IMG/VR virus record: IMGVR_UViG_3300009548_000027
Coordinates: 1 to 25,759 of that record
Reading direction: 5' to 3' (one strand)
Source of the DNA: a virus
DNA length: 25,759 nucleotides
This document shows positions 1 through 19,417 of the stretch, piece by piece. The translations under genes were made by a program, and so were the position numbers. The notes beneath the pieces are model-generated. The model searched no databases. It was not told the DNA's origin and saw nothing but the letters and a program-made list of their open reading frames with translations. How positions within the stretch are numbered: the stretch's first letter is position 1; each line of letters begins with the position of its first letter.

Positions 1-1634
1 GCCACTCCCGGTTCACACGTGAACTCCACTAACTCAAAATTGCTCGAATTCAATACGGCGTTGCCGTCGGTAAAAGTCACAACTGGACTCGCCACACTCG
101 ATCCGCCGTTTCCATCCAAAGCTACAATCGCGTAACTGTAATGCGTGGAGCCGGTTGTCCCATAACTTCCTCCTATTGGCGTACTCGGATTGGCGACTTG
201 CGACATGGAAAGCGAGGTCATTCCCGTCACGGCCGCGCCAAACGGCACCGCTCCCCCGTACGGCGCGAGACCGTTCAAGATCCACGTTCCCGCCGTAACC
301 GAAGGAATATTGGCGTTGGCATTCATGAAGGCAAACGCGGTGGAATCGGTGGGCCAATAGTCATCGACAACATAGGCCGCATTGAGACTCGTAAATTCGC
401 CGTCGGGACGTTCCGCGTACACGGCAATTCCCGTGGAACTATGACCCTGGCCTCCAGAGGCGTGAAATAATCCACCCACAAAAAAACCGCCCATGTCCGG
501 GAACGATCCCGGAGGCGAATCGTCGGCAGCATACCCTTCCGCGCCGATGATGGTCGGATAACCGGCTGTCGTTGCCCCCGCGGTCCGTTCGGCGAAACCG
601 AAAAGACCGCGAAAGGGCACATTTTGAATGACACCCGTAGCCGTTTGCAAACTGGCCGTGCCGTGCAACGCGCTGACTCCATAGTCAATCCCCGTAATCG
701 TGGGATTGCCGGAAACGTCGAATTCGGAATACAACCCCCACCAACCTCCGGTATAAGTATCGGTATCCGTGCTTAAATCATCCGACAGAATGAACATGCC
801 CGCCGGATCGCCTGTAGGACTGGGCCGGTTGTAAATTCCCACGGCGCCCCCATACGAGAAATTTTGAGACCCCGTGGTCGATGGATTTAGTCCAGTCGTG
901 TTGAAAAGCACGGGCCGCGTAAACGACAGAATTCCGGCTGGACTCGCGTTGCCATTGAATTGATGCCAAATCACGTTGGTATCGACGCACGCCTGCTCCT
1001 GCCAAGTGGAGGCCGTATCCAGCAACCATTCCACGGGATTCAATCCGCTGCTGCAATTCGACGCGCTTCCCGGCGAAGGAGGCGAGACAACACCGCCCGC
1101 CGGACTATACCAATCGGTCGAAGCCGTAGTTTGTCCGGTACCCGTCGGCGTCAGACTCGCGCCCGTTCCAACCTGCATCGCCGCTTGCGTGTTGTCGCCG
1201 GACGTTAGGGTATCGAAATTCGTCGCGCCGCCGCCTCCCAAAAGATTTGCCGCCACGACCGTCGAAGCATTCAGCCACACCGTGGCCGTGCCCGAAGTCC
1301 ACGCGCTCACGCAAAGCAGAAACGTGTCTCCGGCGGCCACCGCCGAGGTGAACGAACCGGCCGCCGTGATGGTCGATTGCGAGGTTTGCGAGCCGTAGGG
1401 CGTGACGCTGGTGTTGTCCGGCGTCTGGCCTTGGATGGAGATTTCCGGCTGCAAGGTCATAGTGAACGTGCCTTTGACCTTGATGCCGATGGTCGCTTGC
1501 GCCGTGGTTTCAATGACGGCGCAGGGCGAAGACGCGCTCGATAAAACGAACGGCCCCGCCTTCGACTGCGCCCAAACCGGCGGACTCAAGGCGAGAGAGA
1601 GAAACAGCACATAGATGCAGCGGCGCAGGTTCAT
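1..1634 (-). CDS. Exported tail spike/fibre-like protein (3' part beyond window)
   Basis: The frame is open for 544 codons from the ATG at 1634 to the window edge, so the C-terminus is missing. AAAGGA lies 7 bases before the ATG. Residues 1-22 form a typical Sec signal peptide: basic MNLRR, a hydrophobic core, then VWAQ as a likely cleavage site. The mature part is rich in Gly, Ser, Thr and Asn with short beta-type segments. Near residues 500-540 there is a fibronectin-like stretch (THYSYAIVALDGNGG) common in phage tail and bacterial surface proteins. It is the last gene of the late operon seen here, 23 bases after the preceding fibre-like gene, where P22-like phages encode tailspikes. I recognise no catalytic residues. 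Role in adsorption is inferred from position and composition; the signal peptide is unusual for a virion protein. Confidence 0.75.
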   Translation of the reverse strand, partial: MNLRRCIYVLFLSLALSPPVWAQSKAGPFVLSSASSPCAVIETTAQATIGIKVKGTFTMTLQPEISIQGQTPDNTSVTPYGSQTSQSTITAAGSFTSAVAAGDTFLLCVSAWTSGTATVWLNASTVVAANLLGGGGATNFDTLTSGDNTQAAMQVGTGASLTPTGTGQTTASTDWYSPAGGVVSPPSPGSASNCSSGLNPVEWLLDTASTWQEQACVDTNVIWHQFNGNASPAGILSFTRPVLFNTTGLNPSTTGSQNFSYGGAVGIYNRPSPTGDPAGMFILSDDLSTDTDTYTGGWWGLYSEFDVSGNPTITGIDYGVSALHGTASLQTATGVIQNVPFRGLFGFAERTAGATTAGYPTIIGAEGYAADDSPPGSFPDMGGFFVGGLFHASGGQGHSSTGIAVYAERPDGEFTSLNAAYVVDDYWPTDSTAFAFMNANANIPSVTAGTWILNGLAPYGGAVPFGAAVTGMTSLSMSQVANPSTPIGGSYGTTGSTHYSYAIVALDGNGGSSVASPVVTFTDGNAVLNSSNFELVEFTCEPGV

Positions 1635-1657
1635 AGAAAAATCCTTTCGGAGAAAAA

Positions 1658-3139
1658 TCACTGGCTGGTAAAAATCGCGACGTTCAACCATGAATTTTGC
1701 GAACTGAATTGCGAAGCGGCCTTCACGGTGATCGCCTGCTCGGATTCCACGACGAGAGAAAATGTGGCCGTCCCTCCATTGGAATAGGTGACCGGCGAAT
1801 AACTGGCCGCCGTGGCGTGAAATTCGGTAGTCGGGCCTACCGATCCGGTCGTGTTCGTGCCACCCGTCGCATAAACGTTCGAACCATCGCTCACCCAATA
1901 TTCCACGCCGCCGGCGTTCGACGTTGTAGCTCCCACTAAGTAACTGACGAATGCACGGCATGGACATCCCGCGCTCGGCATGGTCACGCTCGTCGTCATG
2001 ACCGTGGTCGGACTGCCCGCTGAAATGGAAGCGTCATTGGCGAGCGTCGTAATTGAATTGGCTTGTATCGCCACATCCACCGTGCAAGTCAGCGGCAACG
2101 TTCCACTGAAAAACAGGTGCGATCCAGCCGCGCATGTTGGAATGGTCGAAGCCGTGGGATCGGCGCTGGTTTGCCCCACTGCGATTTGATTGTTCCCCAG
2201 CGCGAGGCCGGTTATGGCGCTGCCGTTGCCTTCGTTCAACGAGATCGAATGCGTTGCCGCGCCGGAGTTTGCATCCCCCGAACCTCCCGGAACAATGGTT
2301 TGCCCGTTGACCGTGATATTGAGAACGGAGCTGCAACTCGATCCCGAAACCAAACCGGAATTTGAATCGGTACAAACCGGAGAATTCACCGCCAGTCCGT
2401 GATCGACGATGTTCCCCACGGAAATTTCCGGGCCGGGACTCGTCACACAGGGACCAATAGCCAACGCCGTCGTACCGTTCCAGACAAACATCTGGGTGCT
2501 GATTTGATTGGCAACCGCTCCAATTGTGCATCCTCCCATGGAATTCGACGGCCATGAAAATGTATGGCCTCCCGAAGCATCCTGCGCGATTTCAAACGTG
2601 ATATATCCCGGCGGCGTCACTCCTACGGCCGTGAGCGGCTGCGCGCTGGCGTTGCCCGTGAGCTGCATTTCAAAAAGTTGGTTTTGCGAAGAAACGGTGA
2701 AAACCGGCGTCGCTGAGTACGCGACCACCGTGGTCAACGTCGTGCTTCCGCCGCCGATGCCATTCACCGTGTAGAGTGTCGATCCAGTTGAACAGTTTGT
2801 GCCACCCTGACTCATGACTTTGTAGGTATAGGCTTGACCGGCCGCAAGCCAGATATTCGCCGTCCCACCCGCCGAGAGGATCACTGGATTCTGATTTAAG
2901 GTTGTCCCGGTGTAGTCCGTGTAAGTGCCCAGCGGCGAAGTCGAATTCACCTGGTAAGTGAAGACGCAGCCAAAGGCGTTCGGCTGGCCATCCTGGGTAT
3001 AAGAGACGAATTGGGGCCACGGGGAGATCACCACGGCGGTTTGGGCGGCGCAGAAAGTGACAAAAAGTGTCAGTAACAGGCCGGTAATAGCCAGTAAGTG
3101 CCGTAGACGAAGCGAGTTAGATGCGGGAAGATGGGACAT
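1658..3139 (-). CDS. Tail fibre-like protein with signal peptide and head-binding-like N-terminal domain
   Basis: 493 aa. Residues 1-32 are a signal peptide (RLRH, a long Leu/Thr core ending FCAAQ). Residues 35-130 resemble the N-terminal domain of many phage tail fibres: G-P-x-A-F-G-C-V-F-T-Y, then TYTDYTG, NPVILSAGGTANIWL and an AYTYKV strand. This module is often used to attach fibres to the tail. The rest is Ser/Thr/Gly/Asn-rich beta sequence ending in a compact Cys-poor domain (about 390-493) that could bind a receptor. The ATG at 3139 lies only 11 bases from the divergent start of the plus-strand gene at 3151, so its leader RNA must come from inside that gene. A GTG near codon 36 could give a version without signal peptide, but no ribosome site precedes it. 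Tail function is inferred from the N-terminal motif and operon position. Confidence 0.78.
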   Translation of the reverse strand: MSHLPASNSLRLRHLLAITGLLLTLFVTFCAAQTAVVISPWPQFVSYTQDGQPNAFGCVFTYQVNSTSPLGTYTDYTGTTLNQNPVILSAGGTANIWLAAGQAYTYKVMSQGGTNCSTGSTLYTVNGIGGGSTTLTTVVAYSATPVFTVSSQNQLFEMQLTGNASAQPLTAVGVTPPGYITFEIAQDASGGHTFSWPSNSMGGCTIGAVANQISTQMFVWNGTTALAIGPCVTSPGPEISVGNIVDHGLAVNSPVCTDSNSGLVSGSSCSSVLNITVNGQTIVPGGSGDANSGAATHSISLNEGNGSAITGLALGNNQIAVGQTSADPTASTIPTCAAGSHLFFSGTLPLTCTVDVAIQANSITTLANDASISAGSPTTVMTTSVTMPSAGCPCRAFVSYLVGATTSNAGGVEYWVSDGSNVYATGGTNTTGSVGPTTEFHATAASYSPVTYSNGGTATFSLVVESEQAITVKAASQFSSQNSWLNVAIFTSQ

Positions 3140-3140
3140 C

Positions 3141-3150: not shown

Positions 3151-3432
3151 ATGAAAAAGATTTCGATTTCTGCTGCGTTGATCGGTTTACTCTTCTACGC
3201 GACGTTTCTTGCGGCATCGACTTACTACAAATTGGAGTGGGTTAAGCGAGTCGATCAAGACTTATACTCCGCCAAAAGCGGAACGGCCAAAGTGTTGATC
3301 GAAACAAAGTTTTGTTACGAGATCGCCATCGGCGACGATGCTACGCTGAAATACGACGCCTACTCCTACGACAATAAGATCATCTTCAACAACGATCAGA
3401 GTTGTGATGTGCAAAAAGTCATCGTCCAATGA
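3151..3432 (+). CDS. Small membrane-anchored or exported protein (moron candidate)
   Basis: 93 aa. The N-terminus has two Lys then a hydrophobic segment (ISISAALIGLLFYATFLAAS), a signal peptide or signal anchor. The following 70 residues are polar with two Cys (about residues 55 and 84) that could form a periplasmic disulfide. The pattern RVDQDLYSAKSG...IETKFCYE...D.TLKYD...KIIFN...SCDV resembles a family of small proteins of unknown function common in bacterial chromosomes, which suggests a host origin. It is on the plus strand, opposite to all its neighbours, between the gp16-like and fibre-like genes. Its stop overlaps the next start (ATGA), so the two genes are probably translationally coupled. 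No function is proposed beyond envelope location. Confidence 0.7.
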   Translation: MKKISISAALIGLLFYATFLAASTYYKLEWVKRVDQDLYSAKSGTAKVLIETKFCYEIAIGDDATLKYDAYSYDNKIIFNNDQSCDVQKVIVQ

Positions 3433-3644
3433 CTGATTCCATCGGCTACGAACTTATTACCGAAATCCAGCGCGAGGTCTGGAAGTGCCAGGGCGCGTGC
3501 GGGAAATTCCGCCATCGCACCGTTCGTCCCGGCATTTTGCCCGCCATTTGTTGCGGCGTTCCGGCTCGGCTTTGGGACCGCTACCTCTATCCTGAAATCG
3601 TGAACATCGAGGAACCGGTTGTTTCCCGTTCCGCTACTGAGTAA
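3429..3644 (+). CDS. Small cysteine-containing protein, second gene of plus-strand cassette
   Basis: 71 aa, not recognised. It starts in an ATGA overlap with the preceding exported-protein gene, which strongly suggests one bicistronic unit. Four cysteines (C-x3-C near residues 20-24 and a CC pair near 41-42) with nearby His and Arg could bind a metal, but the spacing fits no family I know. No signal peptide or membrane segment is visible. Its last 11 bases overlap the 3' end of the convergent gp16-like gene, so the cassette completely fills the gap between two late genes. Confidence 0.55.
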   Translation: MTDSIGYELITEIQREVWKCQGACGKFRHRTVRPGILPAICCGVPARLWDRYLYPEIVNIEEPVVSRSATE

Positions 3645-5319
3645 CTTTCGCCGGAGCCATTCTTCGCACCATGATCGGAATTCGTTTGACTCCCGCACGC
3701 TCGGCGGCAATGGCGCGGGCGCGGCCATCCACCTCCACGATGTTGTTCTCGGCGTCTCGGGTTTCCAGTACCGGTTCAACCGGCTGACCGTTCTTGTAAG
3801 ACTCAGTAAGCTTTTGAACATATTGCTCAGTTTGTTCGGGACTCATGCCGCGCGTTTGCTCACGTCCCGAAACCAAGCTCTTGGTATCCACGCCCCAGCG
3901 TTGCGTCAGTTCCGCCGGATCGGCAGTGGTCATCACGCCGCCTTTCGGAACTTCAAGATTGGTAAATGAAGATTGTGGAGCTACGCTCGCCGCTTGCGCG
4001 CCCGCTTGGGCTTTCGGAATAATCGCGCCCTCCGCGTTTTGCATGGTGCCAGCGATGACCGGTTTCCCGTTTTTTGCGACCAGCACGGTACCCGCGCCTT
4101 GCTTGATATTTTTCGTCCAGGCCGCGCCCTGCGAGTCCGCTTTCTCGAAGGCATCGACTTGTTCCGGCGTAACTTCGCCGTGCGTGTAACTTTGCCCGTT
4201 TTTCAGGACTGCCGTAAATTCCTGCGCTTCGGGATCGTACTTGTATCCCTTGAGCAGCGAAGAATCGACGGGCGTGAAGCCTTCCGGCAACTTTCCCGAC
4301 GCCACGGCTTGCGCCGCCGGCTGGTTTCGCAAGGAAACGCCGCGCACCAGCGGCTGTCCGCCGGTCGCTTGATTTAATACCTCTTCAAGTTTTGCGGGCG
4401 TGACCGGCGCGGCGGGCGCGGCTTGCGGTTGTCTCGCAGCCAGCACATCGGAAAATTCCGGGCGACCCGTGGCGGGGTCGGTGACCACGGTACGGGTCGC
4501 CGGTGGCGCTTCTTCGCCCGCATAGGGAACATTCGCTTCGGTCGCATCGAATGGCTGCGCTTTGGCGGCCGCTTCCGTGCCCGCTTTGTAAACGTCGGCT
4601 GCAACATCTCCCACGTAGGGAATGCGCCGAATGGCCGCTACCGGCAACTTTTTTGCCGCGGCCGTGACGCCCGCTTGCAACGATGGATTTTTCGCTATAT
4701 TGGAAACGCCTTCCGGTAACGCCTGCGCCAATTTTGCCGAAAGATTCAGGGCTTCTCCGCCCGCGGCCATTCCCGCGCCTTTCGCCAGCGCGCCGCCAAC
4801 GTCTCCCGTCCCCGCTTGTTCTCCGAGCTGCGCGGCCGCCGGACCGACTAAGGGAACCGCCGCCGCAAGGCCGTGCCCCACGGCTTCGGTATAGCGTCCT
4901 TGGTTCCATAAATTTTTCGCTTTGTCCGCTTCCGCGTCGGCCGGTTTGAAAACAAACTTATTGAGCGTCGAGTCCGGCCCTTGCACCCAGTTGGGATTGT
5001 TGACGATATCGCTTCCCAGGGCGGCGGCCCCTTTGACAACGCTCTTCGCGCCTTCCCATGCGTTCGAGGCCAGATTGCCGAGAGTGAATCCATAGGCCGT
5101 TGGAAGATGCCCTTCGTCGGATTCAAGCGGCTGGATTTGACCGCCGTTTTCAGCCGCCTCTTTCAATCGCGTGACCGGCACCATGCGAACCGTGCCATCC
5201 GGCGCTTTCACGGGATGCGCCGGGACGCCTCCATTCGACACCGCATCTTTCAATGCGGAAAAAGGCACATCGCGAAGCGTGCCTTGCGGATCGTACATCG
5301 GAACTGGAGAAGCGGACAT
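3634..5319 (-). CDS. Putative DNA-ejection/internal virion protein (gp16-like position) with KTSC and ParB-like domains
   Basis: 561 aa, close to the 609 aa of P22 gp16, and third of three consecutive ejection-type genes. The N-terminus has two copies of a motif ending VP(F/V)xxLK(D/E)A...NGG (residues 9-31 and 39-60), often found at the start of large phage internal proteins. Residues 80-230 are Ala/Gly-rich with possible amphipathic or membrane helices. Residues 342-397 match a KTSC domain (LKNGQSYTHGEVTPEQV, then A-x-S-x-G). Residues 450-545 resemble a ParB/sulfiredoxin-like fold, with DGRARAIAAERAGVKRIPI where ParB-type proteins have DGxHR. It joins the previous gene as TAAATG. Role in DNA delivery is inferred from order and composition. 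A lytic transglycosylase motif was looked for and not seen. Confidence 0.72.
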   Translation of the reverse strand: MSASPVPMYDPQGTLRDVPFSALKDAVSNGGVPAHPVKAPDGTVRMVPVTRLKEAAENGGQIQPLESDEGHLPTAYGFTLGNLASNAWEGAKSVVKGAAALGSDIVNNPNWVQGPDSTLNKFVFKPADAEADKAKNLWNQGRYTEAVGHGLAAAVPLVGPAAAQLGEQAGTGDVGGALAKGAGMAAGGEALNLSAKLAQALPEGVSNIAKNPSLQAGVTAAAKKLPVAAIRRIPYVGDVAADVYKAGTEAAAKAQPFDATEANVPYAGEEAPPATRTVVTDPATGRPEFSDVLAARQPQAAPAAPVTPAKLEEVLNQATGGQPLVRGVSLRNQPAAQAVASGKLPEGFTPVDSSLLKGYKYDPEAQEFTAVLKNGQSYTHGEVTPEQVDAFEKADSQGAAWTKNIKQGAGTVLVAKNGKPVIAGTMQNAEGAIIPKAQAGAQAASVAPQSSFTNLEVPKGGVMTTADPAELTQRWGVDTKSLVSGREQTRGMSPEQTEQYVQKLTESYKNGQPVEPVLETRDAENNIVEVDGRARAIAAERAGVKRIPIMVRRMAPAKVTQ

Positions 5320-6891
5320 TTATTTGTGCTCGGAAAAGTTCGACCAATTGAAACCGCTCGGGTTGGCTCCGGCGTTCCCATTTTGAGCGCCCGCACCTTG
5401 ATTCGCACCACCACTCAAACGTTTTTTGATGGCGGCAATATCTTGCAGATAGGACTGGTGGCGGTTCGCCATATCCTGTTTAAGCGTGTCGACCACGGCC
5501 ATCGTTGCCGACATGGGCAAATTGCCGTCCGCCACGTCCTGCGCTTCTTTTTTTTGCGAATCGCTTAAGACTCCCGATCCAGTCGCCGATCCCAACACTT
5601 TGGCCACTTCCGCGGTGGCAGCTTGCCGCGCGGCATTCAGCGCAGCCATGTTGTCGGTTCCAATCATCTTGGCGGTTATCAGGCGCAGCGGCACATTCGC
5701 AAAACGCGCGCCAAGGTCGTAAATCTTCTTCGCCGTTTGCGCGTACAAATCGAGGTTGCGCAAGGCCGTGCCCTCGAAAGCGTCCATGGCATCGAATTGC
5801 TGTTGCAGCTTTTTCAGCGAACCAGTGTCGGCCTGATACGTGGCTTTGTTTGAGGCGATATTTTGTTCAGGCGCGATCTGCGCGGCGCGATTGACGATGG
5901 CCGAAGTTGTACCCGGAGAACGGGAAAATCCGGCCGGCAGCGACCCATCGGTCAAATAACGCTGGGCCGCTTGGTCCACCGCCGCCCCTTGCAACTGGTT
6001 TCCCATGACCACGGCCATCGGGCTCTGTTTTGCTTTCCAAGAAACAAAACTGGCGGGCGTGCGTTGCTCGGGGGGAAGCGTTTCGCCCGGAACTTTGGCG
6101 GCAGTGAGATAGGAATTCATTTCCTGTTGGTCCACCGGGCCAACACCCTGAACGCGCTTTCCGAATTGCGGCGATTGTGGATTGACGTTGACGAGAGTTC
6201 CGCCACCGCCTTCTTTCCAATCGCCAGCCTGCGCTTTTTGCCGCTCAACTGCCTTCGCTTGCTGCGCAGGCGAATTCGCCACCCATTGATCTGCCAACGA
6301 TTGAATCATGGCCGGATTCTGCGCGATGGCTTGCTGCATCTGCGCGATTTGCTGTTTCTGTTGCGGGGCCAAACTGGGGTCGTTCAGTTCATCGGCGAGC
6401 AACGTATGCGCGAGCTGCGAATCGTACTTCGCTTGCTGCAAGGCGTAGCCGAGATTGCCGAGCGCATCGCGCCCTCCCGTCTGAATTTTTTGTTGTTGTT
6501 CTTGCAGGTTGGCGACGGAAGTTTTGTACTCGGTAATACCTTTCATCACCTGGGGAATCGCCGCCCCATGGCCGCCTTGCGCGAGCGATTGCTGCAACGC
6601 ATCGGTGTCGAGCGACAGATTGCCCTGGGCGTCCGGCTTAAACGCTCCCTGGTAGGCGCGGTTCATGGCGTCCACTTGGGCATTCTGCATCTGCGCGGCC
6701 TTCACTTGCTCGGCCTGCATCTGCTGCTGGCCGGGAGCCATAGCTTGCGCTTGTTGCGTCTGTTGTTGCTGCGCTGCCGTTTGCGATTTGAGCGCGGCCA
6801 CGCGGGCATATTCCGCCACTTGGTTCATCGGCGCTTGCGCGATTTGGCCGCCGAGTTCGGCGATGTTAGGAGAAACTGGAATTGCGCTCAT
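5320..6891 (-). CDS. Putative DNA-ejection protein (gp20-like position)
   Basis: 523 aa, Gln/Ala-rich and largely helical, like P22 gp20 (471 aa). Residues 20-80 are dense in Gln (QQQQTQQAQ), and residues 140-230 have heptad-like Gln/Ala/Leu patterns suggesting coiled coil. A mid-protein segment (about 330-420) has regular amphipathic helices. The tail is Gly/Asn-rich and ends SNFSEHK. No enzyme motif is visible. It lies between the gp7-like and gp16-like genes, 6 bases from the first and overlapping none (TAAATG with the second). The assignment rests on position, size and composition; sequence drift in this family is high. Confidence 0.7.
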   Translation of the reverse strand: MSAIPVSPNIAELGGQIAQAPMNQVAEYARVAALKSQTAAQQQQTQQAQAMAPGQQQMQAEQVKAAQMQNAQVDAMNRAYQGAFKPDAQGNLSLDTDALQQSLAQGGHGAAIPQVMKGITEYKTSVANLQEQQQKIQTGGRDALGNLGYALQQAKYDSQLAHTLLADELNDPSLAPQQKQQIAQMQQAIAQNPAMIQSLADQWVANSPAQQAKAVERQKAQAGDWKEGGGGTLVNVNPQSPQFGKRVQGVGPVDQQEMNSYLTAAKVPGETLPPEQRTPASFVSWKAKQSPMAVVMGNQLQGAAVDQAAQRYLTDGSLPAGFSRSPGTTSAIVNRAAQIAPEQNIASNKATYQADTGSLKKLQQQFDAMDAFEGTALRNLDLYAQTAKKIYDLGARFANVPLRLITAKMIGTDNMAALNAARQAATAEVAKVLGSATGSGVLSDSQKKEAQDVADGNLPMSATMAVVDTLKQDMANRHQSYLQDIAAIKKRLSGGANQGAGAQNGNAGANPSGFNWSNFSEHK

Positions 6892-6897
6892 GGAATT

Positions 6898-7641
6898 TTA
6901 GGACCCAAAAAAGTTTCCTACTTGTTCCCCAAGACTGGAACTGCCGGTGGTATCGAGATTGCCGAGGCCCGACGTGAGACCCGACGCCATGCCGCCGGCG
7001 GCGTTCGACCAGGCGTTCGCCGATCCCATGATTCCCGCCGCCCGCGCCGCCGCTGCGTTGTTGATCTGACCCGCTTGTTGCGCCCCGCCCGTAAGATCGA
7101 CATTCGCCAGATTCTGCGCCCCGGCCTGCCCGAGTTGCCCCATGGTGGCCGTGGAAGACAATCCCGCGCCCGTGCCTCCCATGAGTGATTGGTAATTCGC
7201 CATGTAAGAGTTCAGCGCATTTTGGTAAGTCTGTTGATAGGCCGTCTGTCCGAGATTCTGGCCATATTGTTGGAGGGCTTTGCCGGTGTTACCCGACATG
7301 AGCGTACCATTGGCCGCGGCGTTTTCATTGATCGCATTCGTTCCTTGTTGTAACTGAAATTGATAACCGGGCGTCTGCTCGGCCTGGGCCAGTGTGGGAG
7401 CCTGAAAACCGTTCGAGAGCAGAGTATTGAGACCACCCGCGGCCGTCTGGCCGAGCTGCTGGTAGGGCTGTTCGGCGGCAACATTGGCGGCCGTGGCCGA
7501 CGCTTGCGAGCCTTGCGCCGCCTGCTGGTTTTGCAATTCGAGCTGTTGCGCTTTTTGCGCGGCTTGCGACTGGACATTCGCCGCGCTATTGGCCGCACCC
7601 GAGCCTAAAATCCCACCCACCAACGATCCAACGACGCTCAT
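6898..7641 (-). CDS. DNA-ejection protein, P22 gp7-like (DNA transfer protein family)
   Basis: 247 aa against 229 in P22 gp7. It has the layout of the phage DNA-transfer family: a Gly-rich N-terminus (VGSLVGGILGSGAAN), an Ala/Gln helix (about 15-60), the conserved block PGYQFQLQQGTNAINENAA (about 91-109) with downstream GTLMSGNTGKALQQYGQ, and a Gly/Ala/Ser-rich C-terminus. In P22 the homologue is carried in the virion and released into the periplasm to help build a DNA channel. It starts the three-gene ejection block, 4 bases after the GNAT-like gene. Confidence 0.82.
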   Translation of the reverse strand: MSVVGSLVGGILGSGAANSAANVQSQAAQKAQQLELQNQQAAQGSQASATAANVAAEQPYQQLGQTAAGGLNTLLSNGFQAPTLAQAEQTPGYQFQLQQGTNAINENAAANGTLMSGNTGKALQQYGQNLGQTAYQQTYQNALNSYMANYQSLMGGTGAGLSSTATMGQLGQAGAQNLANVDLTGGAQQAGQINNAAAARAAGIMGSANAWSNAAGGMASGLTSGLGNLDTTGSSSLGEQVGNFFGS

Positions 7642-8119: not shown

Positions 8120-8436
8120 CAGTTCGTCCCGTCGCTTTTGATCTTCAAATAACTGCGGGCGGCCGTGAGCGTCAGCGCTCCGCCTTGCACGCCGTTCAAC
8201 GTGAAAGTATTGCCGTCCGCGGAAGTCTTCACATAGGTGATTTCTTTGCACTGCCCCGATTGGCCGGAAGTGTTCACGCCAGCCGGTGGCACGGTTTCCG
8301 CGTAGCTACCTTTCGAGCTATCGACTTCATAGAGCGGCTGAAGCCCCTGCACTAAAAGCAGCCACTGATGGTCGGTCTGCGAAACGTTCGACCCTTGCGT
8401 CGTCGGCGGCGGCGGAAGATAGAGAGTGGTGGGCAT
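8104..8436 (-). CDS. Small tail-region protein of unknown function
   Basis: 110 aa. It starts with a Pro-rich segment (LYLPPPPTTQ) and ends with a beta-type stretch (ALTLTAARSYLKIKSDGTNWW) like those at the ends of tail-fibre and baseplate domains. It follows the gp10-like gene by 15 bases and overlaps the GNAT-like gene. The P22 tail needle gp26 sits here, but gp26 is longer and mostly coiled coil, which this protein is not. A structural role is likely, but the specific one is unknown. Confidence 0.7.
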   Translation of the reverse strand: MPTTLYLPPPPTTQGSNVSQTDHQWLLLVQGLQPLYEVDSSKGSYAETVPPAGVNTSGQSGQCKEITYVKTSADGNTFTLNGVQGGALTLTAARSYLKIKSDGTNWWKTG

Positions 8437-8451: not shown

Positions 8452-10194
8452 TCAGGCCGCCAACTCCAACTCAAGGTATGCATCCGCGATTCGCAGCGGA
8501 ACCGGGTCGGTCCAAATTACTTCCCACACTCGTTTGCGTCCTCTGCCGAGCATCCGCTTGATGACTCGCTTGTTGTACTTCCCGATGTCTCCCAAACTCA
8601 ACGTGTAGGTATTCGACCAAGTTTTTCCGGCGTCGTTTGACCAGCGCAGCATGAGTTCGGCTGGCCGCGCGTTGCCATCGCCATCGATCAGCGGCGGCTT
8701 GCCATAAACTGCGGTCCACATGGCAATGTCCGCCGCCGAAACTCCAAGGCCAACTTCGGCGTCGATTTCCAGTTGCTTGAAGTACACCCACTTGTTGTCT
8801 TTGGCGGTAGTCGGCGAGCGGCGATAGCCGCGAATCATGTTGCCGAAGTCGGTGCAGAACTGAGAGGACAACTGGTACACCGTGCCCGACGCCCAGTCCC
8901 CGACTAAGTGAATCCCAAAATTTAAGGTGTGGCAGACCGCCCGGTCCATCAAGTACGTGCCGTTGATTGCCTGCCAGAAGCCGCGCTTGTGCCAGTAGCT
9001 GGTCAAAATGTCGTAGGCCCAGCTCGCGCCCGCCGACGGGAAATCGAAGATGATGAAGGTGTGGCCGTACTCCTGATAGGTCCAGGCAACGGCGTCGGAA
9101 GTCTTTGCGTAGGTTTGCCACGCCAGTTCGACGGCATGAGTCGAAATTCTTTGGCCGCCGAAACTGCCACTCGAAAGCATGGCGACGAGCGATCCACGTT
9201 CGTCTTGAGAGAGCCAGGCCACCGCGTTTTCGGCAACCTGGGCAATCGCATAGGTGGCGCAAGAGCCGGTTTCAAAGAATGCGCCGGAAATGGGAATGAA
9301 AACCGGGAAGCCCGCCCCGCCGTTGTAGTACCACACCGTCTTTTTCGCCGACGAGAACTGAATGGTGCGGGCGTTCACTTTCATGCTGACGATGTTGTCG
9401 GGGAAGTAAGAAAGGGTGGCGATGTTCAGTCCGTTCCACACGGTTGCATCTTCCAAGTTCGATTGCTGAAAGGTGTGGGAGTTCTGAATGGTCGCGATCA
9501 CGTAGCCGTCGCAGAAATCGATTTGCGCAATCGGCCCGTTGAACTGCGACATGACCACCGGGTAGAGGACGTTATTCCCCACCGCCGAAATATCCACTTG
9601 GAAATTGCCGTCACCCGATCCGGTCGAAACCGCGGTAGCGATGCCGGCGGAAACGACGTTTCCCGAGCCTGGCGTGAAGGCGAAAGTCGCAACCGCGCCG
9701 CCGACGCCGATGGTCAGCACTTCATAAGTCGAGCCGGTGCCATCGATCAGGCCGAGATCTCCCGGCGCGTAGCCTAAGCCCGCCGCGCCCGCGTGGATGT
9801 TCATGGCGGTGATCGCGCCCTGGAAGGTCAGCACGAAGAGATTCCCATTATTCAGGATGACAAGCTGCGATTCGTTCGCCGTCATCATGGTCGGAGTCAC
9901 TGGGGCGCCACCGAGCGAGCCGTAGTTGGCGATCACGGCGCCCGACGCCGAGAGTTCGTAGAGATTCGAGCAGGCGGCGAAGGTTCTGCCGTTGACGCTG
10001 AAGAGCCCGGGCACGGAGGTTTCCCCGGCGAGCTGGGCGAAGACTCTCCGGCCAGGCGTGTGCAGTAAGGCAATCGGAGTTTTCGCGCCGGAGGAGCCCG
10101 ACTGCTCGCAGTATGCGTTCATGCAATCTTCATCGTCGATGTTCGGCGATTGCGATGTGTAAGTGGGACCGCAGAAGCCCCAGTTGCCAGGCAT
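8452..10194 (-). CDS. Tail hub / packaged-DNA stabilisation protein, P22 gp10-like
   Basis: 580 aa against 472 in P22 gp10. In P22 this protein forms a hexameric hub below the portal-gp4 ring and holds the tailspikes and needle. Family features are: GLFSVNGRTFAACSNLYEL (63-81) followed by the N-x-x-Q-L-V-I-L strand; a central beta-propeller-like region with VWYYNGGAGFPVF; and a C-terminal block with LRWSNDAGKTWSN, a G-K-Y-N-K-R turn and VWEVIWTDPVPLRI. An extra 70-residue module is inserted at about 135-206 (GLGYAPGD...TGSGDGNFQV), a small beta domain seen in many tail proteins, which explains the length. The start lies 14 bases from the divergent plus-strand gene at 10209. Confidence 0.85.
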   Translation of the reverse strand: MPGNWGFCGPTYTSQSPNIDDEDCMNAYCEQSGSSGAKTPIALLHTPGRRVFAQLAGETSVPGLFSVNGRTFAACSNLYELSASGAVIANYGSLGGAPVTPTMMTANESQLVILNNGNLFVLTFQGAITAMNIHAGAAGLGYAPGDLGLIDGTGSTYEVLTIGVGGAVATFAFTPGSGNVVSAGIATAVSTGSGDGNFQVDISAVGNNVLYPVVMSQFNGPIAQIDFCDGYVIATIQNSHTFQQSNLEDATVWNGLNIATLSYFPDNIVSMKVNARTIQFSSAKKTVWYYNGGAGFPVFIPISGAFFETGSCATYAIAQVAENAVAWLSQDERGSLVAMLSSGSFGGQRISTHAVELAWQTYAKTSDAVAWTYQEYGHTFIIFDFPSAGASWAYDILTSYWHKRGFWQAINGTYLMDRAVCHTLNFGIHLVGDWASGTVYQLSSQFCTDFGNMIRGYRRSPTTAKDNKWVYFKQLEIDAEVGLGVSAADIAMWTAVYGKPPLIDGDGNARPAELMLRWSNDAGKTWSNTYTLSLGDIGKYNKRVIKRMLGRGRKRVWEVIWTDPVPLRIADAYLELELAA

Positions 10195-11945: not shown

Positions 11946-12893
11946 TCAATAAAATGCAGCGTACGGCCCTTGCCCCGTGGTATAGGCGACGGAGGGCGTA
12001 ATCGTCGATGGAATGGTACCGAACGTCTGTCCCGTGTAAATCTGGGTCAGAAGTCCCGCATTGCCGTCGGCGGTGACGATCAAGTTCAGGGTGTCGGAAC
12101 TGTTCGACGCCTGCGAACACGCCCAGTACCGCGCCGGTCCCACGGCAAAATATTTTGCCGTGAAAGCATAGGGCGCGTACTGGCTTTCGTTGCCGGACGA
12201 CGTCGCGGTGCTGGCACTATGGGCCAACAAATTCCCCGACGCATCGTAAAGAATGGCGTTGCGATTGCCATTGCCCGCCACCGTACCTTGCAAAAGCTCC
12301 AGCCCGGTCAACAGTTTGTTGAAGGGCAAATCGGCTTCCACGCAGTACATGCTGGTGTTGGTGGTGGCCGTCGAAGTCCCGACCCCGGTCAGCACACTGC
12401 CCCCCGGCGAAGGCGCGAAAACCACCGTCGGAGAAAGCGGCGCGTTGACGCCGTTGACCCACACGCCACCCAAACAATCCGAAATTACCGAATTGTCGAT
12501 GTCGATATAGGGCAACACGCTCGACTGCGTGCGAGTGCAACTTCCATTGGGGTATCCCACGGGATTCTGAAAATAAAAATACGAGGGGGGCCCATACCAA
12601 ACCACGGCGCCGTTGGCGTGCGTGCTGACCCGCGACGTGGGCTGGCCGCGCGTCACGGAAACTGTAGTGGAAGTCACGGCATTCACAAAGTCCGCTTCGC
12701 CGTCGATATAGAGCATCGTGCTGTTGGCGGTGATGCCCGAAGTCGATGCCAGACGAAAAACATTCGATTGCGAGTTGGTGGACGTGATGGCCGCCGTAAG
12801 CGTGGTGAAAGGGATGATGGTTTGCCCGAAGGACAGGGACGCCACAAGGAGCAAACCGCAGAGAATCAGTGAAAGTTTCAGAGTGTTTTTCAT
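11946..12893 (-). CDS. Exported structural-like protein encoded next to the coat gene
   Basis: 315 aa from the ATG at 12893, chosen because GGAGA lies 8 bases upstream and the signal peptide begins there; an in-frame ATG at 12917 lies inside a palindrome. Residues 1-24 form a clear signal peptide (MKNTLK, core LSLILCGLLLVASL, SFGQ). Residues 25-105 carry a module common in phage structural proteins: FTTLTAAITSTNSQ, MLYIDGEADFV, VSVTRGQPTSRVSTHANGA. The rest is a Ser/Thr/Gly-rich beta region with several Cys (SCTRTQ, SDCLGG, YCVEADLPF, YWACSQ) that could form disulfides after export. It directly follows the coat gene, a usual place for capsid decoration proteins. The signal peptide conflicts with simple virion assembly in the cytoplasm. 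Confidence 0.75.
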   Translation of the reverse strand: MKNTLKLSLILCGLLLVASLSFGQTIIPFTTLTAAITSTNSQSNVFRLASTSGITANSTMLYIDGEADFVNAVTSTTVSVTRGQPTSRVSTHANGAVVWYGPPSYFYFQNPVGYPNGSCTRTQSSVLPYIDIDNSVISDCLGGVWVNGVNAPLSPTVVFAPSPGGSVLTGVGTSTATTNTSMYCVEADLPFNKLLTGLELLQGTVAGNGNRNAILYDASGNLLAHSASTATSSGNESQYAPYAFTAKYFAVGPARYWACSQASNSSDTLNLIVTADGNAGLLTQIYTGQTFGTIPSTITPSVAYTTGQGPYAAFY

Positions 12894-12944: not shown

Positions 12945-14207
12945 TTAAGCTCCCAGCAACCCTACAACGGCGTTGTCCTGATACAGGTTGCCGAATCCGC
13001 CCACGGTATCGAAGCGGTTGATCTGCAATGAGCGGTAAGCATCCCATGCCTTGACGAAGCGCACCGGAATGCCCGTTTCCTTGTCTTCCGCCTGGGAACG
13101 GGCTTCCACGGCCTTCGGCAAGTAGAAACGCATACCGACAATGGCGAAAGCGAACGGCGTAAGAGCCAAACCTACCGTCCCAATTGCGCCGTTGGGATTG
13201 GCCGTACCGGGCCAAAGCGTGAGGGCCGCGCCGTTCACCGGCAAAGCGTCCACGTTTTGGTATTGGCTGTGTCCATCGGAACTGTTGGCATCCGGCCCAT
13301 AAATCGCGGGCAGGATAGTGATGGTGTCGGCCCCGCCGGTCAACGTGAAGTCCTGCGTCACGGTGAACGTCTGCGGAGTGAGAGGGCCGGGAGGACGCCG
13401 GGAACGCGGGTTGACGAAATTCACGTTGGCGATAGAAAACTTGTCGCCCTGTTTGAGAGTGTCGCCATTGGTACCAGTGACGATCAATGAAGTTCCGCTT
13501 TGTCCGGCTCCGGTGACGGTGACCGCATTCTGCCAGGTTCCGGCGGTGTGAGAGTAGAGGTTCTGCTCTTCAAACACGTCGAACGTTTTCAGTTTTCCCA
13601 TCGACCCTTCCTTGAAGGCTTCCGTGATCGCATCCGAAGGCTGGAAGAGTGAAGTCACGGGAGTATTGATGGAATTAGTCTGCATGGAAGACGAAATCAG
13701 GGCCGCGCGTTTCTTCGACAGGTACGAACCGGCCTTTTGCAGCAAGCGGGCGCGCGCCTGGTCGAGAAACACGATGGACGTTGGATCGGTACCGAGCGAA
13801 CCGACGATCTGGCTGCAATTGTTCTTAGCGAACAAGGCGGCCCGAGAGTCCCATTCGTTCGCCAACTGCACACCGGCTGGAGCTAGGTACTGTTCGCGAA
13901 TTTCCTCTTCCGAGCGTTCGGCTTTGACGGCCGCTTCGTAATCGTCCCACTGGAAGTCGATGCCGAAAGGCTCGTCCAGGGAAATCGTGGTCGAAATGCG
14001 ATTGATGCCTTGCGGGTTGTATCCGAGTGCGTTGCGGATGGTGAACTGTTGCGGAAATTTGACTTGGATCGTGGTACCGACCGTCCACGCCTTTTGGTAG
14101 TCTTTTTCCCAATCGTGATTGAAATATTCGGCAATCTTCAAGGCGTTCTTGAGATTGCGTAACACCTCCATGGAAATCCATGAAGTGTTTAGAAATAAGT
14201 TGGCCAC
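12945..14207 (-). CDS. Major capsid (coat) protein, P22 gp5-like
   Basis: 420 aa against 430 in P22 gp5. It starts at a GTG three bases after the scaffold stop, with AAAGGA upstream. The N-terminus has the P22-type pattern: MANLFLNTSWISMEVLRNLK, then NHDWEKDYQKAWTVGTTIQVKFP, FTIRNALGY, and the ISLDEPFGIDFQWDDYE strand. REQYLAPAGVQLANEWDSRA follows, corresponding to the long helix of the HK97 fold. Residues 215-330 form a beta-rich stretch (VTGAGQSGTSLIVTG, GDKFSIANVNFVNP) where P22 coat carries its inserted domain. The C-terminus ends RSLQINRFDTVGGFGNLYQ. It forms the icosahedral shell with the scaffold encoded just upstream. Confidence 0.92.
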   Translation of the reverse strand: MANLFLNTSWISMEVLRNLKNALKIAEYFNHDWEKDYQKAWTVGTTIQVKFPQQFTIRNALGYNPQGINRISTTISLDEPFGIDFQWDDYEAAVKAERSEEEIREQYLAPAGVQLANEWDSRAALFAKNNCSQIVGSLGTDPTSIVFLDQARARLLQKAGSYLSKKRAALISSSMQTNSINTPVTSLFQPSDAITEAFKEGSMGKLKTFDVFEEQNLYSHTAGTWQNAVTVTGAGQSGTSLIVTGTNGDTLKQGDKFSIANVNFVNPRSRRPPGPLTPQTFTVTQDFTLTGGADTITILPAIYGPDANSSDGHSQYQNVDALPVNGAALTLWPGTANPNGAIGTVGLALTPFAFAIVGMRFYLPKAVEARSQAEDKETGIPVRFVKAWDAYRSLQINRFDTVGGFGNLYQDNAVVGLLGA

Positions 14208-14210
14208 GGG

Positions 14211-15320: not shown

Positions 15321-15365
15321 GAGATTGTCCTTGTTTTTTTTGCGCTTAACGCCGCGCGGGCGAAA

Positions 15366-17567
15366 CTAAACTTGTTGAGGCTGAGACGGTTGAGATATTG
15401 GAGATGGCTGCTGGTTTTCCGCTTGCTGGGCCGCTAACGTCTGCATCTGTTGCGCTTGTTGCGCCTCATGCTGATGTTCCATAGCCTGCAAGGCAACATC
15501 GTGAGCGCTCGAATGATTCTCTTGCCAAAATTCCTTATACATCTGCACCCGTTCGCTGTCGCTTTGCGCCTTGGCGGAAATTTCGGCGAGCAGCACTTTG
15601 ATGTCGTTGGCGAGCTGGGCACGCTGATTGTCGCCGTCTTCCTTCATCTGTTGGAGCAGGAGTTTGGTTTGCTGTTCGAGAATCTTGCCCGCGTGCTCCA
15701 TATGCAGCGCCGCCGCTTCCTGTTGCGCTTGCTGCAATTGCGCCTGTAGGGCTTGCATGGCGGCCTGCGCTTGCGGCGGCAGGGCGGCTTGATCGACGGG
15801 CGGCGGATCGAACACGTCGGCGATCTGCTTGCCGATGGGGCCGAGCGTGGGACGCATCCGAATGGCCAAGGCTAGCACTTTGGCCGCGGGCGTTCCAGGC
15901 TGGGGAAGATTGGCGATGTTCTCGGTCAGGGAATCGACAAATTCATCCTGTTCTTCCCGTTCCGATTGATAACTCGGCCCGGTCGAGATCGTCACGTCGA
16001 ATTCGCCTTTGCCGGTGTGGAGATGGTTCGCGTCCAATCCTTGTACTTCATAGCTGCCATCTTCGCCCAGAGGATGCGAGGTGTTGCCCACGAGCTGCAT
16101 CGTGGAACGCTTGCCGTCCGGCTGTGAAATGGGCATTTCGCGCTGGGTGTCGAGGATCGGGGTAATCAGTTCATTGATCTGCCAGCCCATATTGTGCAGA
16201 AAGCCGTTCTCGTAGCGGTCCACGAAATGAAAGCTGCCCAGCGACTCCATATCGTCGATTTTTTCGAGAGCCACGCCGGATTTCTGGTTTCTGCGCTGGG
16301 CGGCGTCCGGCAACGGCGTGATTCCCATGCCCGCTTGAATGGCGCGGGCGGCGGCGTCTTTGGCGATTTCCCAGATTTGAAAATTCGGAGCCCACTGCGG
16401 ACGCTGGGGCGGTGGCAGAACGTTCTGCCCCGTGGCGTCGATTACCGGATCGTATTGCAGGTAAGCGTGAGGAACTTTTGTGACTTCATCCCACGCTTCC
16501 TTGTCGGACTCAAACTGGCCTTTCGCGCCGACAAACGGACTTTTCGGAATCTGGCCCGCTTCTTCACATTCACCGGACGCCAGGTAATCGAGCAGCATCT
16601 GCGGATCGCGAGCAAAGCGCACCATGGAAAGCAGTTGCCGTTTGGCCGTGCCCCCTTCGGTTGTCCAGCGTTCCGGGCCTAGACATGAAATTATTGGGAC
16701 CCGGCTTCCATCCCACGGAACCTTGTCGAGAATTTCCAGGCCGTTCGTCATGTACTGGAAAACTTTTGGGAGCTCGACTTTGCGTTCCCGCTTAATCTCG
16801 CCGCGCGCGCCTTTTTCCTTCGCCAGCTTCCAATCTTCTTCGCTGAAAATCTGCGGGCCTTGCGCGGTTCCGATCAAGAACAGCGTCTTGAAACTCGACT
16901 GGATTTTCCAGTACTCCGCCCGCTGCACATACTTTTCCTTAATCCAGTCGGTGATGGTCGTGTCGCTCAAGTCCTGGTCGCCAAAATCGGTGATTCGCGC
17001 GCCGGGGTATTCGAGCTTGAATTGCGCCTTCGGCATGAGATCGAGGAAAAAAGCGTCGGGAATGTCGCTGGCGTTCGGCTGTTTGTAATAGGGCGAGAGC
17101 AAGACGCTATCGGGATTCGCCACCGGCTTAATGAGAATCTCCATGTCGAAACTGGAATCGTCTTTGTAGTCGGTGCGAATCAGCGCAAAACCGTAACTGC
17201 GTTCTGTCATCGACTGGAACGCCGACAAATAAATGGGTTGCGCTTGCGAACGCTCTTCGATCCCCATGATGGCCGCCGAACGCTTTTCGGCATCGGCGTC
17301 GTTCGCGCCGTTGCCTTTGGGAATGGCGGTGATGGCCCGCTTCGATTTGCGGACGTTGCCGTTGATTTGGGCGAGAAACTGATTCAATTGATCGAGATGG
17401 ATACAAGGACGGCCCGAGCCTTTGCGGGCGTCGCGATCTTCGTCCGTCCACGGGCCTTCGGTCGAAATGGCCCGCATGTCACTAGCTCCCTCATCCCTGA
17501 TTTCACGCCAGGCGTCGCGATAATCCTTGTAGGCTTCGCGAATTTCTTTGGGAGTTGGATCGGACAT
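15366..17567 (-). CDS. Portal protein, P22 gp1-like
   Basis: 733 aa against 725 in P22 gp1. Twelve copies form the ring at one capsid vertex that drives assembly, takes DNA from the terminase, and holds the tail. P22-type features are GRPCIHLDQLNQFLAQINGNVRKSKRAI (53-80 region), a helix with IEERSQAQPIYLSAFQSMTE, SYGFALIRTDY, and DMEILIKPVANPDSVLLSPY. Also seen are WAPNFQIWEIAKDAAARAIQAG and a central wing helix with NQKSGVALEKIDD. Residues 600-733 are a long Gln/Ala-rich helical tail (QALQAQLQQAQQEAAALH) consistent with the P22 portal barrel, ending in a Gln/Pro tail. It joins the preceding gene as TAAATG. Confidence 0.93.
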   Translation of the reverse strand: MSDPTPKEIREAYKDYRDAWREIRDEGASDMRAISTEGPWTDEDRDARKGSGRPCIHLDQLNQFLAQINGNVRKSKRAITAIPKGNGANDADAEKRSAAIMGIEERSQAQPIYLSAFQSMTERSYGFALIRTDYKDDSSFDMEILIKPVANPDSVLLSPYYKQPNASDIPDAFFLDLMPKAQFKLEYPGARITDFGDQDLSDTTITDWIKEKYVQRAEYWKIQSSFKTLFLIGTAQGPQIFSEEDWKLAKEKGARGEIKRERKVELPKVFQYMTNGLEILDKVPWDGSRVPIISCLGPERWTTEGGTAKRQLLSMVRFARDPQMLLDYLASGECEEAGQIPKSPFVGAKGQFESDKEAWDEVTKVPHAYLQYDPVIDATGQNVLPPPQRPQWAPNFQIWEIAKDAAARAIQAGMGITPLPDAAQRRNQKSGVALEKIDDMESLGSFHFVDRYENGFLHNMGWQINELITPILDTQREMPISQPDGKRSTMQLVGNTSHPLGEDGSYEVQGLDANHLHTGKGEFDVTISTGPSYQSEREEQDEFVDSLTENIANLPQPGTPAAKVLALAIRMRPTLGPIGKQIADVFDPPPVDQAALPPQAQAAMQALQAQLQQAQQEAAALHMEHAGKILEQQTKLLLQQMKEDGDNQRAQLANDIKVLLAEISAKAQSDSERVQMYKEFWQENHSSAHDVALQAMEHQHEAQQAQQMQTLAAQQAENQQPSPISQPSQPQQV

Positions 17568-18278: not shown

Positions 18279-18716
18279 TTACTCGGTTTCTTCCTCTTCC
18301 GGCTCTTCGTTCTCTTCCCGCGCTACGTCCTTCGCGGCGTGGCCCAGAATCCCCAGGTGCTCGCCGATGTGCTCCATCATATTGCCATGGGTGGAACTTT
18401 CACCGTGGGCATCGAACGGAAACGCATGGTGCGTCTGTTCCTGAAACGCGCCCGAGGGCGAGTTTTTGGCGGCGCTCGGCATCATGTGGTGGTGAACGGT
18501 GTGGCCGGTGACTTCATTTTTTGGACCGCGATGGATTTCAATTTCCATGCGATGGATCTTGTGCGGAGCGGCTTGTTTCATGGCGGCGGAACCTTTCTTC
18601 ATGCGCCCGAGGGCGGGATTTTCGTGCAATTCGGAATTCATTTTGTCCTTTTGCGCGGCGGTGAGCGGCGAGCCGGACGATTCGAGGTAGTGGACTTGAC
18701 GGGGGGTCCAGGGCAT
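18279..18716 (-). CDS. Hypothetical phage protein, His- and Glu-rich
   Basis: 145 aa. The N-terminus (MPWTPRQVHYLESSGSPLT, then AQKDKM and ALGRMKKGS) is a pattern seen at the start of many small phage proteins of unknown role. The middle is rich in His and Met (HTVHHHMMP, GNMMEHIGEHLGILGH) and the C-terminus is strongly acidic (EENEEPEEEETE). The His clusters could bind metal. The start shares one base with the stop of the exported Ig-domain gene (TGATG), so the two are likely coupled. Confidence 0.7.
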   Translation of the reverse strand: MPWTPRQVHYLESSGSPLTAAQKDKMNSELHENPALGRMKKGSAAMKQAAPHKIHRMEIEIHRGPKNEVTGHTVHHHMMPSAAKNSPSGAFQEQTHHAFPFDAHGESSTHGNMMEHIGEHLGILGHAAKDVAREENEEPEEEETE

Positions 18717-19417
18717 CAGCTTGGCCCCATTCCGCCGGTGACCGTCACCACGGCCACGGCAACAATCCCAACATCTCCACTGACAACGAAAACATAGTAG
18801 ACGTTCGCGCTTCCCGGCGCGGTATAGACGCCAGTCGATTGATTAATCGTGCCAGCCGTACACGCCCACGTCACGTTTTGAGTTGGAGTGCCGGTCAAGC
18901 TGAAGGTAAAAGTCTGGGTCGCGCTTGTGCTGATGGAAGCAGTTGCGGGGCTGATGACAATCGCCGGAGTGACGGCGGAATTGCCTAAAGTGATTGTGTA
19001 CGGCCCAAAACAAGTGACCGTATTCTGAATGCAGACGGTGTAATCGTATTTTCCCGGCACCGCCCAAAATCCGATATTTCCCTGCGCATCTCCCGTTCCC
19101 TGGCAGCCCGACGGTTGCGGATCGGGCGTATCCTGCGCGCCGTTGGGACAAGCCACGGCGCTCGAGGTATAGGTTGTCGCGTAGTTCGTGCAAGGCACCT
19201 GGTTCGCGGGAGAATTGCAAACGGCGAGAATTGGAGCGTTCGGCGGAACGTTGGCGACCAAAAACGGCGTGGCGTATGCGGACGAAACGGAGGGAAAAGG
19301 CGCGGAATAACGCACAATCTGCGCGACCGTGGGACTGGCGTGGACGAAGCTGCAGGCGAAAAGCAACAAGCCGAGCGTCAAAACGGCAACCGTAGGATGG
19401 GCCAAAAAGCGTTTCAT
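18716..19417 (-). CDS. Exported protein with carbohydrate/fibre-like domain and Ig-like domain
   Basis: 233 aa from the ATG at 19417; the frame extends upstream, but this start overlaps the previous stop (ATGA) and begins a signal peptide (MKRFL, core AVLTLGLLLFACSF, VHAS). LLFAC is a poor lipobox, so a lipoprotein is possible but less likely. Residues 30-145 are a beta domain with four or five Cys (VPCTNYATTYTS, GNIGFWAVPGKYDYTVC), a plan seen in acidobacterial surface and phage tail proteins. Residues 150-225 are a bacterial Ig-like (BIG-type) domain: ISPATASISTSATQTF, NVTWACTAGTINQSTGVYT, with a C-terminal TVTGGMG. It belongs to the accessory block between TerL and portal. It is a candidate virion surface or secreted adhesive protein. 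Confidence 0.72.
   Translation of the reverse strand: MKRFLAHPTVAVLTLGLLLFACSFVHASPTVAQIVRYSAPFPSVSSAYATPFLVANVPPNAPILAVCNSPANQVPCTNYATTYTSSAVACPNGAQDTPDPQPSGCQGTGDAQGNIGFWAVPGKYDYTVCIQNTVTCFGPYTITLGNSAVTPAIVISPATASISTSATQTFTFSLTGTPTQNVTWACTAGTINQSTGVYTAPGSANVYYVFVVSGDVGIVAVAVVTVTGGMGPS

Follow-up and report, generated by a model that had tools for sequence, protein, structure and literature searches.

Predicted Sec signal peptides on the tailspike and neighbouring virion-type proteins of a P22-like podovirus group

The window analysed here is a 25.8-kb virus record (IMG/VR IMGVR_UViG_3300009548_000027, all 25,759 nucleotides), whose minus strand reads as a podoviral late operon of the P22-like kind. 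Four of its minus-strand genes, starting at 19417, 12893, 3139 and 1634, encode products that very probably are exported by the Sec pathway and cut by signal peptidase, and the product of the gene starting at 3139 is, by profile comparison, a tailspike. Assembly of tailed phages is taught as a cytoplasmic process, and tailspikes are expected to lack a signal peptide. The tailspike family of the window, FIB1, contradicts this expectation. In 21 of 24 contigs of the virus group, counted with a choice of start codons that favoured tagged starts, exactly one protein with the head-binding domain was found, and it was tagged with a signal peptide in all 21. The other three contigs, possibly fragments, showed no head-binding protein, and an untagged head-binding protein was found in none of the 24. 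We favour, with moderate confidence, a reading in which the four products are exported, cleaved, disulfide-bonded and attached to finished particles at lysis. Completion of tailed-phage virions outside the cytoplasm is put forward as a well-motivated hypothesis and not as a result. The features of FIB1 are as follows, with an arrow marking predicted cleavage.

1661..3139, minus strand: predicted tailspike or fibre FIB1, 493 amino acids (aa), with signal peptide, head-binding domain, beta module and TNF-like tip, and 10 mature cysteines; signal peptide by rule, domain by hidden Markov model and PDB profile search, tip by model and structure comparison
3044..3139, minus strand: signal peptide with predicted cleavage ..TFCAA↓Q at residue 32, by rule; Gln at +1 in 19 of 21 alignment rows
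2765..3043, minus strand: head-binding domain, residues 33-125, with the Cys58/Cys116 pair, by alignment and profile searches
1661..2074, minus strand: TNF/C1q-like tip, residues 356-493, by VIA-align, on a block with predicted local distance difference test (pLDDT) values of 61-93

Searched against the PDB, the FIB1 profile (alignment A3) returned just four sequences up to E 10 (E 0.0065-0.015), all of them named tailspike and one bearing the name 'head-binding domain'. A second profile (A7), which mixes tagged relatives with relatives lacking a signal peptide, matched the solved tailspikes 9vyg (E 1.5e-13) and 7eeq (E 2e-13), and the head-binding-like module that an earlier note on this DNA had proposed for the 3139 product is borne out by these matches. 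The FIB1 profile also matched open reading frames (ORFs) in six of ten control phages with a P22-type coat protein, two of the six being annotated as tail spike; the tail spike of Xanthomonas phage PBR31 gave E 2.2e-27 and the five other controls 5.5e-17 to 3.7e-7. A tblastn search of annotated phages with the FIB1 head-binding region (E limit 0.01) found none, the relation appearing with profiles. With the PBR31 domain, which has no signal peptide, as query, 34 phage records were matched, the N-termini being examined in the controls alone.

In the matched control proteins the head-binding domain stands at the start of the protein, and in the alignment the Met of five of them lies within one residue of the Gln-Thr start of the mature exported spike. 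A survey of environmental sequences gave 80 loci with the domain, reduced to 65 distinct domains; their likely start is within about five residues of the domain, and in none of the 65 does a signal peptide abut it. This set was drawn with one pattern allowing C, K or Q, the best 80 of 581 matches being listed, was confirmed against the PBR31 spike, and favours forms lacking a signal peptide. In the survey a start was allowed whenever its tag would run up to the domain, which was equally generous to the set without signal peptides.

Signal peptides were called by our own crude n-h-c rule. Among the 25 genes listed for the window, the four genes passed and none of the 21 others did. Each of the four N-termini has basic residues, then a hydrophobic core, then an end of the signal peptidase I type, and by this rule the small residues at -3 and -1 and the n-h-c layout are those of Sec/signal peptidase I substrates. 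The predicted cleavage regions are VHASPTVA↓QIVRY (gene starting at 19417), SLSFG↓QTIIP (12893), TFCAA↓QTAVV (3139) and PPVWA↓QSKAG (1634). The best 15-residue hydropathy within the first 55 residues was 1.94-2.48 in these genes, against at most 1.65 in the other listed genes.

Among genes of at least 200 aa, called and scored in one way throughout, 72 of 453 reached a score of at least 4 in the 24 group contigs, which are related to each other and include the window's virus (G001) and a contig (G021) very like another member (G011), against 2 of 170 in the ten control phages, several of them covered partially (Fisher test, 7.7e-9). Both long tagged control genes belong to PBR31, one being an esterase with a previously reported signal peptide (PMC10975493), and the eight further matches in the controls were all in genes shorter than 200 aa. 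Two or more adjacent tagged genes were present at the fibre end of the operon in 16 of the 24 contigs. A tagged ORF followed the coat gene within 260 nt at all 41 loci with room for one (4 of 45 loci were too short), compared with none of the ten control phages, and no such ORF occurred at the coat start in 23 group loci.

Each of the four genes represents a family: QNVRY (19417), SPcoat (12893), FIB1 (3139) and KAGP (1634). Rule-positive ORFs made up 37/37 of SPcoat, 25/25 of FIB1, 15/16 of KAGP and 16/16 of QNVRY, in counts that include partial or overlapping copies of one gene and the window's own virus and in which, as in the survey of QNVRY loci (30/30 tagged, several on contigs already in the group set), start choice favoured tagged starts; the signal peptide of the sixteenth KAGP ORF was recognised by eye. 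Gln occupied position +1 in 33/34, 19/21, 14/14 and 12/14 rows of the family alignments. The columns of the tag were variable (majority identity 0.44-0.54) and the mature part was more conserved (0.66-0.83). The earlier note had marked the same four starts as Sec-type tags and held that four of them were not chance; the rule agrees on the starts (4/25 genes), and the gene counts and coat-downstream loci uphold the second point. Conserved signal peptides in related phages, which the note had proposed to look for, are kept in kind within the group and vary in sequence. Its homologue test came out divided: homologues within the group are tagged, and the head-binding domain of distant phages has no tag (0/65).

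Cysteines follow the same division. Two are present in the head-binding domain in all 21 A3 rows; none of the 65 domains lacking a signal peptide has as many as two, 60 having none and five a single one. The A3 search of viral contigs used two Cys-containing patterns, and the association of signal peptide and Cys in that search, being partly built in, was not counted. Further along FIB1, Cys204 and Cys231 are both present in 12 rows, both absent in 8 and single in 1 (n = 21), and as a pair they were not found by eye in relatives of that module lacking a signal peptide. Cysteine parity was counted for proteins of 200 aa or more, with clustering at 70% as the sole correction for phylogeny; contig G021 was excluded, as were truncated and minus-strand genes. 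Of 55 signal-peptide proteins, 50 had an even and 5 an odd number of mature cysteines, whereas cysteine-containing proteins without the tag divided into 62 even and 65 odd. Disulfide formation outside the cytoplasm would explain this pattern most simply, and from the cysteine covariation we consider such bonds highly probable.

In the resulting model, the head, tail hub and ejection proteins would be made without signal peptides. The appendages, namely the single tailspike, at least one fibre-like protein behind it and the coat-adjacent decoration- or fibre-like protein, would be made as Sec preproteins. Signal peptidase I would cut next to the conserved Gln and leave the tailspike with an N-terminus about like that of tailspikes lacking a signal peptide. 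The exported proteins would fold outside the cytoplasm with disulfide bonds, and once lysis breached the inner membrane, DNA-filled particles would meet and bind them. From homology and synteny, the tagged proteins are probably virion components. That they join particles at lysis is proposed because an untagged copy was not found, and we incline to it a shade less firmly than to the reading as a whole. P22 tailspikes join the particle last, and also do so in vitro, which makes attachment at lysis plausible. It is made plausible too by the decoration protein Dec, for which in vitro attachment of the purified protein to P22 particles is reported (PMC6449081). The evidence is evenly poised on the wider proposition that the sole head-binding tailspike, together with a whole layer of other proteins of the virion surface, goes through Sec, is matured in the periplasm by signal peptidase and disulfide formation and is fitted onto DNA-filled heads at lysis. 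On this view the route had its origin in P22-like soil phages and perhaps a second, separate one in Acidobacteriota phages of the Tunturi_1 type.

The same export evidence would serve proteins that are disulfide-bonded outside the cell and never part of a virion, acting for instance by coating receptors on the host, its neighbours or debris, against superinfection or loss of progeny. A TNF-like, lectin-type tip could block receptors, and authors describing signal-peptide proteins of Porphyromonas gingivalis Nixviridae phages propose that these could modify the host outer membrane (PMC10367356). A purely extracellular role is nevertheless unlikely, as it leaves unexplained a virion-attachment domain right after the cleavage site, at the position of the PBR31 tailspike, and the fact that none of the 21 contigs with the domain offers an untagged substitute. 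Among the options raised in the earlier note, extracellular coats or decoys leave these two facts unexplained, and acquisition of the proteins by virions at or after lysis is supported. An exported pool of spikes might also do both, part joining virions at lysis and the excess staying outside as a receptor mask. This follows from a single tagged head-binding protein with a lectin-like tip, and no present fact separates it from joining at lysis; we regard it as rather improbable.

The hydrophobic N-termini seen on all four products could instead remain uncleaved, as membrane-active or anchoring virion segments, for example for DNA delivery, which was a further option of the note. The combination of a variable tag with a small residue in position -1 and an almost invariant Gln in position +1 is the pattern of a signal peptidase substrate, and Cys parity points to an oxidising place. 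An uncleaved tag would moreover sit where head-binding proteins without signal peptides have Met and a few residues. Because such untagged proteins start with Met near the cleavage point, a real, removed signal peptide is favoured, and retention of the N-termini is very improbable. Least likely of all is an artefact of prediction or of wrong start codons. The rule was made by hand, the choice of starts favoured tags, and the Shine-Dalgarno sequence before 3139 is poor by eye. Against an artefact, the same scan was blank at 10/10 control coat-downstream sites and 23/23 coat-start sites, Gln is conserved at +1, and the start at 19417 overlaps the preceding stop.

Several observations weigh against the preferred reading of export followed by attachment at lysis. 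The model of FIB1 is poor overall (pLDDT 62.6), and structure searches with it returned matches to the tip (residues 356-493) and not to the head-binding domain. The 19417 product of the window has seven mature cysteines, an odd number. A KAGP-like module in the Chlorobiaceae phage CV-1-33 has two cysteines and no signal peptide. A 334-aa protein without signal peptide and with 10 Cys, encoded at 19701-20705 between terminase and portal, might serve as a cytoplasmic receptor binder; it has relatives with mixed Cys parity in 10 other contigs, matched no family in Pfam or PHROGs, and has the look of a repeat-rich fibre by eye. Isolated phages speak on both sides. In favour of the reading stands Tunturi_1, described as an isolated 63-kb podovirus of Acidobacteriota (PP887698; PMC11924767), in which no P22 portal was found by Pfam. 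Among 26 of its genes tested, signal peptides were present on gp12, gp13, gp14, gp16 and gp17 (20, 10, 20, 1 and 32 mature cysteines, respectively), gp14 being annotated as 'tail spike' and gp17 as 'virion structural protein'. On the other side, no signal peptide was found among 27 structural-region genes tested of Tunturi_3 or among 21 of Tunturi_4. Tunturi_3 shares the host strain of Tunturi_1, so export is not forced by the host.

The modelled tip of FIB1 has a TNF/C1q-like fold, which it shares with lectins. Its VIA-align Z values were 13.9 (Pgp3), 12.5 (the lectin PLTL) and 12.3 (the lectin BC2L-C), in a list that spans residues 356-493 alone and says nothing on the N-terminal domain.

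The features of the other three tagged genes are:

11946..12893, minus strand: SPcoat, coat-adjacent protein with signal peptide, 315 aa, four mature cysteines, predicted decoration- or fibre-like folds
12825..12893, minus strand: SPcoat signal peptide, predicted cleavage SLSFG↓Q, by rule and alignment
11949..12449, minus strand: SPcoat C-terminal domain resembling a cyanophage A4 capsid chain, by Foldseek (E 1.6e-4) and VIA-align
1..1634, running off the window, minus strand: KAGP, fibre-like gene with signal peptide, conserved N-terminal module of about 110 aa and variable C-terminus
1569..1634, minus strand: KAGP signal peptide, predicted cleavage PPVWA↓Q, by rule and alignment
18716..19417, minus strand: QNVRY-module gene, 233 aa, with signal peptide, six-Cys module and short tail
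19322..19417, minus strand: signal peptide of the 19417 product, predicted cleavage SPTVA↓Q at residue 32, by family alignment (the rule alone gives 27)
18989..19321, minus strand: conserved QNVRY module, residues 33-143, with six invariant cysteines, by alignment A5

The C-terminal domain of SPcoat aligned with the A4 capsid chain at Z 15.2 (root-mean-square deviation 3.3, 153 aligned); central fibres and tail tips of phages score not far below (Z 12.1-13.5), and a small barrel in SPcoat has a counterpart in the baseplate protein of phage JBD30 (Z 10.6). No SPcoat homologues were found in annotated phages by tblastn (E limit 1e-5). The profiles of the KAGP and QNVRY modules had no matches in the PDB up to E 10. 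The QNVRY family had none in Pfam at 0.01, and one of its 15 members matches a head-decoration PHROG. The earlier note had labelled the 1634 product fibronectin-like, and no such module was detected by Pfam or PHROGs (at full length, PHROGs); its Ig-like label on the 19417 product is weak, the Pfam I-set match (E 0.05) falling below the cut-off. Cleavage of the 19417 product is most likely at residue 32 and not 27, because the family has an invariant Gln at 33. A lipoprotein reading of this product, suggested by L-F-A-C in the tag, was rejected by eye, since this Cys is missing from most family members, whose cleavage sites agree on [AGS]↓Q. In the families of the 19417 and 1634 products the conserved N-terminal module is followed by C-termini of widely differing length, and the same layout of constant N-terminus and variable C-terminus is described for P22-like tailspikes (PMC2629481).

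The late operon also contains the following genes, of which portal, coat and head closure, identified by family search, place the virus among the P22-like podoviruses:

15366..17567, minus strand: P22-type portal, without signal peptide (PF16510, E 5.6e-91)
12945..14207, minus strand: P22-type coat protein, without signal peptide (PF11651, E 8.7e-26)
8452..10194, minus strand: head closure/tail hub protein, without signal peptide (phrog_578, E 1.4e-76)
3634..7641, minus strand: three ejection-protein-like genes, no Cys and no signal peptide, named by position and size alone

The order portal, coat, head closure, tailspike agrees with that in PBR31, where internal proteins A-C occupy the position equivalent to the three ejection-protein-like genes. 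For terminase, scaffold and ejection proteins the names come from inspection by eye and from gene position alone. Contig G001 (38,272 bases) is 100% identical to the window over 25,366 bases and represents the same virus; the gene starting at 1634, cut by the window edge, is whole there and encodes 718 aa. A P22 portal was present in 11 of 13 additional contigs (up to 62 kb), and the two without it were found through another module.

A plus-strand ORF at 3151-3432 (93 aa), outside the 25-gene list, also passes the n-h-c rule (score 3.99). It fills part of the space separating the tailspike gene from the gene before it, antiparallel to the operon, and within the group was seen in the window's own virus only. 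At locus L223 one tagged head-binding N-terminus occurs in three copies (ORFs from about 5775, 6206 and 6700), two as short 153-aa ORFs and one within a 411-aa gene, and these look like a tandem duplication of the spike N-terminus. In PBR31, whose tailspike lacks a signal peptide, the neighbouring orf035 (24674-25483) is tagged, has two mature cysteines and matches the tail fibre family phrog_11393 (E 1.1e-15). Within the late operon of the window, at 7646-8251, lies a GNAT acetyltransferase-like gene, so labelled by eye alone; an acetyltransferase is annotated in the tail regions of PBR31, Tunturi_1 and Tunturi_3. A 15-bp tandem array of 26 copies (89% matches) at 25204-25596 of the window is present at both ends of G001 too, which suggests a genome closing on itself there or an assembly break at the repeat. 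Contig G009 (IMGVR_UViG_3300024182_000015) carries pieces of a portal gene at either end, which would fit a genome that is circular or circularly permuted.

According to the Q-rule reported for Bacteroidetes, signal peptidase I substrates have Gln at +1 (PMC5837995). The window families fit this Gln criterion by the row counts given above (33/34, 19/21, 14/14 and 12/14). On the Granulicella (Acidobacteriota) plasmid pACIX901, Gln was at +1 in 8/36 predicted signal peptides, and [AGSC]Q occurred within five residues of the predicted site in 25/36; in the metagenome-assembled genome (MAG) G024 the corresponding values were 8/26 and 10/26. An E. coli comparison yielded 2 signal peptides, too small a number to be of use. 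A Q-rule-like preference may exist outside Bacteroidetes, as far as a rough predictor and a small sample can indicate. The sole genome-contig match was a contig of 29 kb from a MAG that bears the name Betaproteobacteria, and tetranucleotide usage of the group correlated at 0.89 with the Betaproteobacteria MAG versus 0.77 with the Granulicella plasmid. The hints on the host diverge between that MAG and the Acidobacteriota host of the analogous isolated Tunturi_1.

If the proposed route is true, virion completion would be an extracytoplasmic step tied to lysis, and spikes could use disulfide bonds, perhaps helping survival in soil. In uncultured phages, receptor-binding proteins could then be picked out with the aid of signal-peptide prediction. 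The question of export is testable in the isolated pair Tunturi_1/Tunturiibacter.

No Sec-exported tailspikes of tailed phages were described in the titles and abstract openings of the papers listed, at most 10-20 per search, from an open-licence literature in which subscription journals are mostly absent. FIB1 shares with known podophage tailspikes (7eeq, 9vyg, PBR31) a homologous N-terminal domain and a variable C-terminus and, like the PBR31 tail spike, is placed behind the internal or ejection proteins. It differs from them by the predicted cleavable tag (21/21 contigs) and two cysteines, neither of which occurs in the 65 domains lacking a signal peptide. SPcoat, like the A4 capsid chain 9jwb_Z and the phage L protein Dec, is encoded beside the coat gene, and its likeness to 9jwb_Z is one of fold alone. 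Unlike these decoration proteins it has a signal peptide and four conserved cysteines; in ORF25L of A-4L, taken as the related protein of a cyanophage, a signal peptide is absent. Filamentous phages make some of their virion proteins with signal peptides, as in the M13 coat proteins pIII and pVIII. Those phages are assembled at the inner membrane and extruded, whereas the head of the window virus is expected to assemble in the cytoplasm. A parallel in phage-encoded Sec proteins is found in the Nixviridae phages of P. gingivalis, for which five genes of unknown function are reported whose signal-peptide products would expose Gln at +1 (PMC10367356). The window group consists of different phages, and its predicted exported proteins include an identifiable tailspike.

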